Shown: positions 10,724-12,922 of the stretch, one piece after another
Position numbering within the stretch: position 1 is the stretch's first letter
How the letters are laid out: every line of letters starts with the position of its first letter
From: Acidocella sp.
Lineage (GTDB): Bacteria > Pseudomonadota > Alphaproteobacteria > Acetobacterales > Acetobacteraceae
Reading direction: 5' to 3'
NCBI GenBank assembly: GCA_031291755.1
Contig: JARLIK010000019.1
Span: forward strand, 124,001-188,000
Length of the DNA: 64,000 nt
Made by a program: the position numbers and the translations under genes
Notes under the pieces: generated by a model
What the model was told of the DNA's origin: nothing
The model's database searches: none
The model's input: only the letters and a program-made list of their open reading frames with translations

Positions 10724-11439
10724 GTGCGCTCGACCGGTGTCGACAGAACGTAGCCGCCGCCTCGTACTGTTTTTATGAGTTGGGCGTTTCGTCCGTCATC
10801 TTCTAATTTGCGCCGTAACCGGGATACGGCAACATCGATCGCGCGGTCAAAAGGTCCTGCTTGCCGCCCACGCAACAAGTCCAACAGCATGTCCCGGGTG
10901 AGGACCCGGTTTGGCCGGTCCAGGAGGGCTAGCAACAATTCATACTCACCGCCGGTGATAGCAACTTCGATACCCGATGGGTCCAATAGCCGGCGGCGGG
11001 CTGTTTCAAGTAACCAGCCCGAAAACCGGTAAGTTTTGGCCGTGTTTTCGGATACGCGGTCTTCCGTTTCACTGGTCCGGCGCAGCACAGCACGAATCCG
11101 CGCCAGCAGTTCGCGTGGATTGAATGGTTTTGTGACATAATCATCAGCGCCTAACTCAAGGCCGATAATTCGGTCAGTTTCTTCAGCCATCGCCGTCAGC
11201 ATAACAATCGGGACATTTGTCTCAGATCTGAGCCAACGCGCCAAGTCTAACCCACCCTCGCCGGGCAGCATCAGATCAAGTACAACAAGATGAAAATGCC
11301 CATTCATAAAGGCCCGGCGTGCCTCCTTGCCGTCTCGCGCTGTCGTGACTCTTAGCCGTTGGCGTTCAAGGAATTTTGCAAGCAAGTCACGGATTTCACG
11401 GTCATCATCAACGACCAAAATATGCGGCATGGTTTCCAT
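10720..11439 (-). CDS. OmpR-family response regulator
   Basis: A receiver plus winged-helix regulator of 239 residues from ATG 11439; ATG 11430 is equally possible because neither has a strong ribosome site. The receiver has the acidic pocket VVDDDRE, the phospho-acceptor Asp near residue 55 in LVVLDLMLPGEGG, and LGADDYVTKPF with the conserved Lys. The C-terminal Trans_reg_C domain contains GGEYELLLALLDRPNRVLTRDMLLDLLRG and the recognition region FDRAIDVAVSRLRRKL. It is the first gene of the regulator-kinase-dedA operon. A tandem 10-bp repeat about 40-60 bp upstream is a candidate autoregulatory site. Confidence 0.93.
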   Translation of the reverse strand: METMPHILVVDDDREIRDLLAKFLERQRLRVTTARDGKEARRAFMNGHFHLVVLDLMLPGEGGLDLARWLRSETNVPIVMLTAMAEETDRIIGLELGADDYVTKPFNPRELLARIRAVLRRTSETEDRVSENTAKTYRFSGWLLETARRRLLDPSGIEVAITGGEYELLLALLDRPNRVLTRDMLLDLLRGRQAGPFDRAIDVAVSRLRRKLEDDGRNAQLIKTVRGGGYVLSTPVERT

Positions 11440-11481
11440 AGCTGTTACAATAGCGTCTGATGGGTGTGTTTGGCAGTCTGT

Positions 11482-11501
11482 GTTGCAATTAGTTGCAATT
11501 T
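11482..11501. promoter_or_regulatory. Tandem GTTGCAATT repeat, candidate response-regulator operator
   Basis: Two copies of GTTGCAATT stand head to tail with a 10-bp period (11482-11490 and 11492-11500), 43 bp upstream of the response-regulator start. OmpR-family regulators commonly bind direct repeats spaced about one helical turn apart, so autoregulation of the operon is a reasonable inference. Regulation of the divergent ornithine decarboxylase transcript from the same site is also possible. Binding is not shown by sequence alone. Confidence 0.5.
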
Positions 11502-11640
11502 GCACCACCGCGCCCCACCGGCATTCCGCTGCCGTGGCCGGTAAGGCTTGGTAAAAATTTCTCTTGCGTTGGCATGCTATTGGCCCTATTGGGCCGCTCA
11601 CGCAGCAACGCACGTGCCTCTGCCGCTTCTTCAAGCTTTT

Positions 11641-11694
11641 ATGGAGGGTGGTTACGCAACGACGTCAAGCGTTCTGGCAGCACTGCTGGCTTAA
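11641..11694 (+). CDS. Possible 17-residue upstream peptide in the decarboxylase leader
   Basis: ATG 11641 opens a 17-codon frame reading MEGGYATTSSVLAALLA and ending at TAA 11692-11694. There is no convincing ribosome site before it, so it may be fortuitous. I list it because it ends just before the AAGGAG that serves the next mini-frame, an arrangement that would allow translational coupling within the leader. Confidence 0.2.
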   Translation: MEGGYATTSSVLAALLA

Positions 11695-11715
11695 CCTGCA
11701 AAGGAGAAGCCGAAA

Positions 11716-11766
11716 GTGGCTGGTTCGTTGGACCGTTTTGTAACCTATGCCCGTCGCCTTATCTGA
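11716..11766 (+). CDS. Possible 16-residue leader peptide upstream of ornithine decarboxylase
   Basis: GTG 11716 is preceded by a consensus AAGGAG at 11701-11706 with 9 bases of spacing and reads MAGSLDRFVTYARRLI before TGA 11764-11766. It ends 31 bases before the decarboxylase ATG. A ribosome site this strong in front of a 16-codon frame suggests a translated leader. In enterobacteria the speF gene is controlled by a translated leader peptide that arrests in response to ornithine; equivalence here is inference only. Confidence 0.4.
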   Translation: MAGSLDRFVTYARRLI

Positions 11767-11797
11767 AAGGCGGGCTTCCATAGAAAGGCTCGTTGTG

Positions 11798-12922
11798 ATG
11801 ACCCCAAAAGTCGCCGCTTTCCTTGATTCTTCGGCCTTGGCTACGCCGTTTCTGGCGCTCGATCTTGAAAAGGTTGCGGACAACTATGCCGCCATGCGCC
11901 GTGCGCTCCCGACGGCTAAGATCTATTATGCTGTGAAGGCCAATCCAGCGGAGCCCATTTTGCGCTTGCTGGCGGGCTTGGGCTCTTGCTTTGATGCCGC
12001 CAGCATTCACGAAATTGAACAGTGTATTGCTGTGGGGGCACCAGCGGCCGCAATCAGCTTTGGTAACACTGTGAAGAAGCCAAGTGCCATCGCGGCGGCT
12101 TATGCCTTGGGTGTGCCTCTCTATGCCTTTGATTCTATTGAAGAATTGCAAAAAATTGCGCTCCATGCGCCGGGCTCAAAGGTTTATTGCCGGATCGCTG
12201 TCAATAACACCGGGGCTGAATGGCCGCTGTCCAAAAAGTTTGGAACGACGCTGGATTTGGCACGGGATCTGATGTTGAAGGCAGGTGAATTTGGCCTCAT
12301 CCCCTACGGGCTCTCGTTTCATGTGGGTAGTCAACAGACCGCCACAGACGCTTATGAGCTGGCAATTTCCGAGGTGGCGATGCTGTTCACGGATTTGAAA
12401 GCCGCCGGTATCGAGTTGAAAATGCTTAATTTAGGCGGCGGTTTCCCGATTCGCTATCAAGATGATGTTCCGAGCACCGATATGTTTGGTGACGTGATCA
12501 TGCACGCGATGACCAGCCATTTTGGCAATGATCTTCCTGACATGCTGATCGAGCCAGGCCGTGCGATGGTCGGCAATGCAGGGGTGGTTGCCGCGGAGGT
12601 CGTGTTGGTTTGCCGCCGGATGCCGCAGGATGAGCGCCGTTGGGTGTATCTTGATATTGGCCGGTTTGGTGGGCTTGCTGAAACCGAAGGCGAGGCGATC
12701 CGCTACAATATTACGGCGGGATCAGGGGCCACCGGGCCGGTTGTTCTGGCGGGACCCAGCTGCGATGGCGTGGATATAATGTATGAAAAAACTCCATACC
12801 GGCTGCCGCTTGATCTGCAGGCGGGAGAACGGGTGCTGATCCATAACGCCGGCGCTTATGTGACAAGTTACGCCAGCCAGAATTTTAATGGTTTCGCTCC
12901 GCTGACTGAATACTATCTGTAA
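11798..12922 (+). CDS. Ornithine decarboxylase, alanine-racemase-fold (group IV) type
   Basis: This PLP enzyme decarboxylates ornithine to putrescine, the first step of polyamine synthesis in this lineage. The 374-residue protein has the PLP lysine in YYAVKANPAEP (Lys47), SCFDAASIHEIE, the glycine-rich phosphate loop LNLGGGFPIRYQ, EPGRAMVGNAG and the dimer-interface Cys in GPSCDGVDIMYEK. The CDGVD version favours ornithine/lysine over diaminopimelate decarboxylase. ATG 11798 has GAAAGG 11 bases upstream. A long untranslated leader precedes it. The ABC importer at 19.4-21.7 kb is of the basic-amino-acid class and could supply substrate. Confidence 0.88.
   Translation: MTPKVAAFLDSSALATPFLALDLEKVADNYAAMRRALPTAKIYYAVKANPAEPILRLLAGLGSCFDAASIHEIEQCIAVGAPAAAISFGNTVKKPSAIAAAYALGVPLYAFDSIEELQKIALHAPGSKVYCRIAVNNTGAEWPLSKKFGTTLDLARDLMLKAGEFGLIPYGLSFHVGSQQTATDAYELAISEVAMLFTDLKAAGIELKMLNLGGGFPIRYQDDVPSTDMFGDVIMHAMTSHFGNDLPDMLIEPGRAMVGNAGVVAAEVVLVCRRMPQDERRWVYLDIGRFGGLAETEGEAIRYNITAGSGATGPVVLAGPSCDGVDIMYEKTPYRLPLDLQAGERVLIHNAGAYVTSYASQNFNGFAPLTEYYL

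Follow-up and report, generated by a model that had tools for sequence, protein, structure and literature searches.

In enterobacteria, the SpeFL/speF leader controls an ornithine decarboxylase (ODC) gene and is peptide-based. The speF RNA of Corbino et al. (2005; RF00518) lies upstream of alphaproteobacterial ODC genes; as described in the text of that report, conservation begins near the transcription start, and a stem with a variable insertion is followed by a long bulged stem-loop of about 80 nt (PMC1273637). The same text reports that the A. tumefaciens speF RNA bound none of ornithine, lysine, diaminopimelate, putrescine, cadaverine and spermidine, and homospermidine does not appear in its list of compounds tested (PMC1273637). 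Passages on speF in a Bartonella paper (PMC7717549) and in a 2024 review (PMC11477304) leave its function open. The odc1 motif (uORF-25-1) of Sphingomonas is described as having the UUG start of an 11-residue uORF two bases before the UUG main start (PMC8632094), and the text of an RNA-seq study of Gluconobacter oxydans gives seven Rfam-predicted elements, none of them at ODC (PMC5756330).

Here we describe a leader in a 64,000-nt stretch of Acidocella sp. DNA, hereafter the window. That positions 11600–11797 encode a conserved structured 5′ leader of an ODC gene, with kinship to speF, is well supported; our literature search, which covered mainly open-access sources, yielded no description of this Acetobacteraceae element. 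We conclude that the leader is real and conserved, and that it looks like a lineage variant of the alphaproteobacterial speF leader.

Results

The leader in Acetobacteraceae

The gap at 11440–11797 (358 bp) lies between a divergent response-regulator gene on the minus strand (OmpR-like by best score, under the NCBIfam cut-off) and an ODC gene whose closest solved relatives are lysine/ornithine decarboxylases, the best being 5gjm at 8e-61. An earlier note on this DNA had read the gap as a regulatory ODC leader, very probably rightly: a conserved structured element stands before the gene. Its features are as follows.

11564–11592, plus strand: putative promoter (−35 TTGCGT at 11564–11569, 17 nt, −10 TATTGG at 11587–11592)
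11600–11620, plus strand: block A (ACGCAGCAACGCACGTGCCTC), which opens the leader and is near-invariant; candidate strand for sequestering the ODC start region (putative outer helix P0)
11621–11654, plus strand: hairpin P1, TGCC...GGTTA with a variable loop; 92.7% of cells paired
11641–11694, plus strand: 17-codon ATG frame and stop, not conserved and probably due to chance; its ATG, at 11641, lies in the P1 loop
11655–11678, plus strand: block B (CGCAACGACGTCAAGCGTTCTGGC), 5′ strand of the long bulged stem P2
11679–11718, plus strand: variable apical part of P2, with the GGCTT/AAGCC hairpin and AAGGAG
11716–11766, plus strand: 16-codon GTG frame and stop, ending ARRLI; not conserved, probably due to chance
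11719–11740, plus strand: block C (GCTGGTTCGTTGGACCGTTTTG), 3′ strand of P2; 99.8% of P2 cells paired in 99 sequences
11749–11775, plus strand: hairpin P4, GCCCG...CGGGC, directly 5′ of the ribosome site; two-sided changes at 5/5 pairs, 95.7% of cells paired
11784–11797, plus strand: ODC ribosome site AAAGG and spacer, presumed to pair with block A as the 3′ strand of P0
11798–12922, plus strand: ODC (type III PLP decarboxylase), ATG start; PF02784 at 8.4e-52

The transcription start near 11600 is predicted from the promoter-like sequence that sits directly 5′ of the conserved blocks. TTG[CA] is present in the −35 region of 100/105 aligned leaders, and a permissive pattern gives a −10-like site, likewise in 100/105; a strict sigma-70 consensus scan gave no match.

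We oriented 113 family loci; with the mis-oriented L077, L079 and L085 and L098, which has no block A, taken out, 109 rows and 105 distinct leaders remained, 47 of the latter making up the MAFFT alignment A1. The element was found by our covariance model R1 in the three mis-oriented loci, and L098 gave no R1 match. Three blocks stand out in the aligned family leaders, A (ACGCAGCAACGCACGTGCCTC), B (CGCAACGACGTCAAGCGTTCTGGC) and C (GCTGGTTCGTTCGACCGTTTCG), with variable hairpins between them. Over 40 genomes, blocks B and C together are 96.8% identical, compared with 72.2% for the ODC coding DNA, which falls to 54% at third positions and reaches 85% in its best 50-nt window.

RNAalifold on the 47 leaders paired B with C as the long bulged stem P2 and also found hairpin P4; in A1, 99.2% of P2 cells are paired and P4 has two-sided changes at 5/5 pairs. 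Pairing figures from the larger alignment of 99 leaders call for caution, as it was fitted to a covariance model: the 18 P2 pairs comprise 11 that are invariant, five with one-sided variation and two with single unpaired cells only, and 21 of the 24 cells that differ from the commonest pair still form a standard pair. No two-sided change occurred at any P2 pair in these Acetobacteraceae leaders; support for P2 comes from the pair-keeping one-sided changes together with a different paired sequence in other families. The most variable columns inside blocks B and C are the unpaired ones. P4 covaried at all five pairs in the same 99 leaders, and P1 showed two-sided change at two of five pairs, in one sequence each.

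The predicted fold of the window leader holds P2 and a closure of block A with the ODC start region (z −2.89), and the leader of a short relative folded no better than its shuffles (z −0.15). For the 94 family B-to-C segments of at most 140 nt, longer ones having been left out of the folding scores, the mean z was −1.95, with 40/94 below −2.

Distribution in the family

R1 matched 107 of 120 family genomes, a sample spanning 102 genera and including the window's own genome, with one match per genome except for two genomes with a second weak match. Of the 13 genomes missed, eight lack a strong ODC match (best E 2.1e-12 to 1.3e-26); the other five carry an ODC-like gene of 48–58% identity without the element; G050 has an R1 match and no strong ODC match. 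Run on 100 sources, R1 matched 99, and no match ended more than 25 nt from the ODC start. Searching public genomes for the exact pattern gave at least 118 stretches, and among the 80 listed all but one are named Acetobacteraceae, Rhodospirillales or simply Proteobacteria. Species of Acetobacter, Gluconobacter, Komagataeibacter and Roseomonas are among the carriers, and congeners of G. oxydans have the motif.

Three side observations belong here. A weak second R1 match in an Acetobacteraceae genome (G016:C1:79604-79717, 28.8 bits) lies directly before an ODC-like paralogue; one stretch with the motif (L149) is on a contig titled as a Nitrosovibrio MAG, possibly a misbinned Acetobacteraceae contig; and a match to sul1 RNA (RF03058, 61.5 bits) lies near the ODC locus of a relative (L021:2957-3012).

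Relation to speF

The earlier note had also proposed a speF-type RNA. The Rfam speF model RF00518 gave no match at E ≤ 10 around the gap (10900–12100) and none at the gathering score across the whole window, none at E ≤ 5 in 15 relatives, and 0/60 in family genomes, where the control genomes gave no match either. In a class sample it matched 8/240 genomes, six above the gathering score, under five family labels; these eight loci come from six genera, and the matches, of 118–157 nt, lie 3′ of a 5′ domain that the leaders share.

That domain reads GACGCA..CGCACGTGCC.NTGGCCC-hairpin-GGTTATGCAACGACG in other-family leaders. Among 68 class loci read, blocks A and B, with at most one mismatch each, occurred together in 32 (30/65 outside Acetobacteraceae and 2/3 inside). 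R1, whose E-values, like those of R2 below, are rough because calibration was shortened, matched 11 of 28 other-family ODC loci (worst E 0.013) and missed 17, all four speF-type ones included; in a class sample of 230 genomes it matched 17 other-family genomes. By eye only, several class loci lacking A and B seem to have another polyamine-synthesis gene directly upstream of ODC.

We built a second model, R2, from 21 of 24 candidate other-family leaders (alignment A2), with neither Acetobacteraceae nor speF sequences in it; P1 shows no covariation in this alignment. R2 matched the window at 39.1 bits (E 1.5e-6) and 9/10 of the other Acetobacteraceae loci given to it (22.2–57.6 bits), L098 being unmatched. 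It also matched the Rfam-speF loci, 8/8, at 14.9–26.7 bits and E-values from 6.5e-4 to 0.21, above 0.01 in six of the eight; in all eight the match ends 5–6 nt inside the start of the RF00518 match, and GCAACGACG and CGCACGTGCC are exact in 4/4 speF loci read. The weaker E-values alone are unconvincing; the shared position and the identical GCAACGACG and CGCACGTGCC are what we find convincing. Because R2 matches the window and also, though mostly weakly, all eight speF loci, the leader looks like an Acetobacteraceae variant of a wider speF-type polyamine leader.

R2 matched 36/230 genomes of the class sample, under 27 family labels; in a phylum sample (n = 249), the eight matching genomes are the window's own and seven of the same class, in a listing silent on the number out of class. 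Two further ODC leaders, L253 and L254, have diverged blocks A and B and may be another branch; R2 gave 12.5 bits for L254 and no match for L253.

The finding that the earlier note had named as counting against its reading, namely no speF match and no conservation of its two mini-frames or of AAGGAG, is formally what we obtained. Membership of RF00518 falls with it, but the kinship survives on other grounds, because the 5′ domain is common to the window leader, the other-family ODC leaders and the sequence 5′ of 8/8 RF00518 matches.

Leaders in other families

To our knowledge, the ODC leaders of other alphaproteobacterial families do not form an Rfam family. By a permissive pattern, an SD-like run and an ATG follow P2 in 32/33 of them; the single exception, L335, is probably mis-anchored, as the same locus read as L258 shows the SD-ATG. 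In 29 of the 32 leaders folded (mean z −2.4), the pairing partner of the SD is the strand that opens with block B, and because of this pairing in the folds we suggest that P2 would act as a translational gate in those lineages. In Acetobacteraceae, block C, on the right shoulder of P2, is without SD or start, and the ODC ribosome site comes after P4.

The ATG after P2 opens a separate ORF in 25/32 leaders; in the other 7/32 its frame continues into the downstream protein, and among these L297 was counted by its ODC-like end and L341 runs into an amidotransferase. In L336, L342, L345, L354, L357 and L297 the ATG after block B is in frame with a decarboxylase, and the stem would gate the enzyme directly. 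By eye, ODC's own SD-ATG follows block B in four loci of family group f23, and, by eye only, the ATG after block B in L359, L360 and L362 is in frame with the decarboxylase. The odc1-type double start, sought by eye and by pattern in the four f23 loci, was not found at the ODC start.

Among leader ORFs of 20–80 codons, 12/19 (lengths 30–59) have [ST]-S-[IMLQ] near the stop, among their final 13 residues (L329, L330, L331, L333, L334, L337, L338, L346, L349, L241, L255 and L259), the second residue always being an AGT serine; the count excludes seven shorter ORFs (9–16 codons) and seven that continue into the enzyme or up to the end of the sequence. Codon shuffling gave an expectation of 0.6, and 0/2000 shuffles reached 12, figures to be read knowing that the pattern was picked after the peptides had been seen and that some genomes share a family or genus. 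The ending suggests a translated peptide, possibly a polyamine-linked arrest peptide, or an in-frame constraint on the RNA.

The genes downstream of 30 R2 matches given loci are an ODC of at least 48% identity in 21, an ODC-like paralogue of 31–37% in five (L339, L343, L347, L350 and L351), a homospermidine synthase in L352 (2.7e-146 to PDB 4xq9) and a glutamine amidotransferase in L341 (under the NCBIfam cut-off); in the short loci L356 and L358 no ODC-like match was found beside the R2 match. The occurrence of the shared domain before homospermidine synthase and the ODC-like paralogue suggests a polyamine regulon and, for the same reason, a signal that would be polyamine status rather than ornithine alone.

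The ODC start region

GTGCG forms the last five nucleotides before the ODC ATG in 48/105 leaders and lies within 8 nt of it in 51/105, against a mean of 1.3 and a maximum of 6 in 300 shuffles; the pattern was noticed first and tested afterwards, and the leader counts are not independent events, because the genomes share ancestry. The helix that it could form with block A, CGCAC/GUGCG, has 81.2% of cells paired compared with 6–62% when slid along; since block A is invariant, no compensatory change was found for P0. Expected pairs between block A and the start region average 8.43, compared with 5.65 for shuffled tails, and are higher in 89/105 leaders. For the window the corresponding values are 10.7 and 5.0; it keeps GCCU/AGGC, and the second part of P0 is weaker, with TTGTG in place of GTGCG.

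In 30 other-family leaders GTGCG was not enriched (11, with 11.2 expected), CGTGCG occurred in 8 (expected 4.7) and GTGCGG in 9 (expected 3.6, maximum 8 in 50 shuffles). We therefore rejected it as a general P0 partner outside Acetobacteraceae, and P0 as drawn may be specific to the family or have another cause.

Discussion

Comparison across genomes argues for a functional leader through its conservation, the covarying P4, the P2 pairing kept by almost all variation, the adjacency to ODC and the shared 5′ domain. Our preferred reading, which we consider probable though well short of settled, is that a structured cis-regulatory leader of the speF type, in its Acetobacteraceae variant, precedes ODC in the mRNA and most likely controls translation of the enzyme. 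The mRNA would begin near 11600 and fold into block A, P1, the long bulged P2 made by B and C, and P4. In an OFF state, block A would pair with the ribosome site of ODC and the nucleotides just 5′ of its AUG (GCCU/AGGC, and CGCAC/GUGCG in many relatives), closing the outer helix P0 around P1, P2 and P4; in an ON state, the near-invariant P2 core would read a signal and block A would be freed. We infer this outer-helix switch from the pairing described above, and the signal probably reflects polyamine status in some way.

That the P2 core itself directly binds a polyamine or pathway metabolite, as in a strict metabolite riboswitch, is possible but on the doubtful side. Paired and bulged P2 nucleotides alike are near-invariant in 99 leaders, and the genes in context serve polyamine synthesis, as such a sensor would lead one to expect; the A. 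tumefaciens speF RNA, however, bound none of the six metabolites in the tests described by Corbino et al. (PMC1273637).

Transcription attenuation, with P4 as a weak terminator and the leader setting read-through, draws on the GC-rich covarying hairpin and the few U that follow it in some relatives. We judge it improbable: the U runs are short, an antiterminator partner looked for by eye was not found, and the terminator scan placed no site at P4, on which ground we rejected a terminator there. The scan gave a single weak site, at 11721–11735, where shuffled sequences gave 0.6 sites on average.

Conservation might instead be transcriptional, with a DNA operator formed by the palindrome GCACGTGC, a sequence located at the predicted transcription start that a regulator would recognise. 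Nearly all leaders do carry this perfect 8-nt palindrome, in block A beside promoter-like sequence, but an operator would leave blocks B and C, their pairing, the P4 covariation and the ribosome-site pairing of other families unexplained, and three loci of the same genus (L003, L100 and L101) carry GTACGTGC, in which the palindrome is broken. We regard this explanation as very unlikely.

The earlier note had favoured a translated 16-codon leader peptide, ending ARRLI, with ribosome movement as the means by which arginine, ornithine or polyamines would control ODC. The mini-frame features that it pointed to are there: both frames, the AAGGAG at 11701–11706 nine bases 5′ of the GTG, and the hairpin arms GGCTT (11688–11692) and AAGCC (11707–11711) with AAGGAG in the loop, a hairpin that is the variable apical loop of the larger conserved stem P2. 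The frames and AAGGAG are nearly private to the window's genome: counting the window each time, the aligned codon is GTG in 1/105 distinct leaders (84 have GTC), 3/105 have an SD-like site upstream of it (the window, L019 and L094), and 1/109 rows has a start codon where the second frame has its ATG. The start codon, SD and reading frame that ribosome-mediated attenuation would conserve are thus not conserved in the family leaders, and spacers between the conserved blocks vary by non-multiples of three, leaving the peptide explanation unsupported and, in our estimate, extremely improbable. We also dropped the idea of one reading frame spanning all three conserved blocks: the spacers differ in length out of phase, and in L022 the frame meets a stop.

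Beyond the preferred reading for Acetobacteraceae, one ancient alphaproteobacterial RNA superfamily may control polyamine synthesis genes, with the Acetobacteraceae element as its RNA-only branch; we offer this tentatively, as a possibility somewhat short of an even chance. The shared block A, P1 and block B would make a stem hiding a ribosome site, that of a leader ORF in most lineages and the enzyme's own in some; the longer leader ORFs, often ending [ST]-S-[IMLQ], would perhaps encode arrest peptides. The rhizobial-type speF and the Acetobacteraceae element would be branches without a leader ORF, the latter having become a purely RNA-based switch that covers the ODC start when closed. Judging by the breadth of the shared domain (27 family labels in 230 genomes, compared with 5 in 240 for RF00518), the Rfam model seems to describe a single branch, and that one incompletely. 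In the wider set, the ribosome site paired into P2, the link to homospermidine synthase and the putative leader peptide in some lineages are clues to sensing that can be tested.

With the enterobacterial SpeFL/speF leader the window leader would share control of an ODC gene and a polyamine logic, but that system belongs to another taxon and is peptide-based, whereas the Acetobacteraceae leader is without a peptide.

As far as its description goes, the odc1 motif is similar in being an alphaproteobacterial ODC leader with an extended stem, a large loop, a ribosome site on the right shoulder and suspected translational control. The same description sets it apart: ODC in the window starts with ATG at 11798, has no conserved mini-frame before it, and shows neither the UUG-NN-UUG double start nor the 11-residue uORF.

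The other-family alphaproteobacterial leaders have block A, P1, block B and the P2 stem in common with it and differ in that their P2 pairs the SD of an ATG that opens either a leader ORF or the enzyme, an SD-ATG that is absent in Acetobacteraceae. As for speF, no Acetobacteraceae leader tested matches RF00518; block C, the 3′ strand of P2, is another sequence in Acetobacteraceae, and P4 with direct abutment on ODC replaces the 3′ part of speF. The window leader nevertheless shares CGCACGUGCC ... GCAACGACG with speF and, compared with the text description of the extended speF element of Corbino et al. (2005), has block A, P1, P2 and a COG0019 ODC, with a start that is predicted, in agreement with that element.
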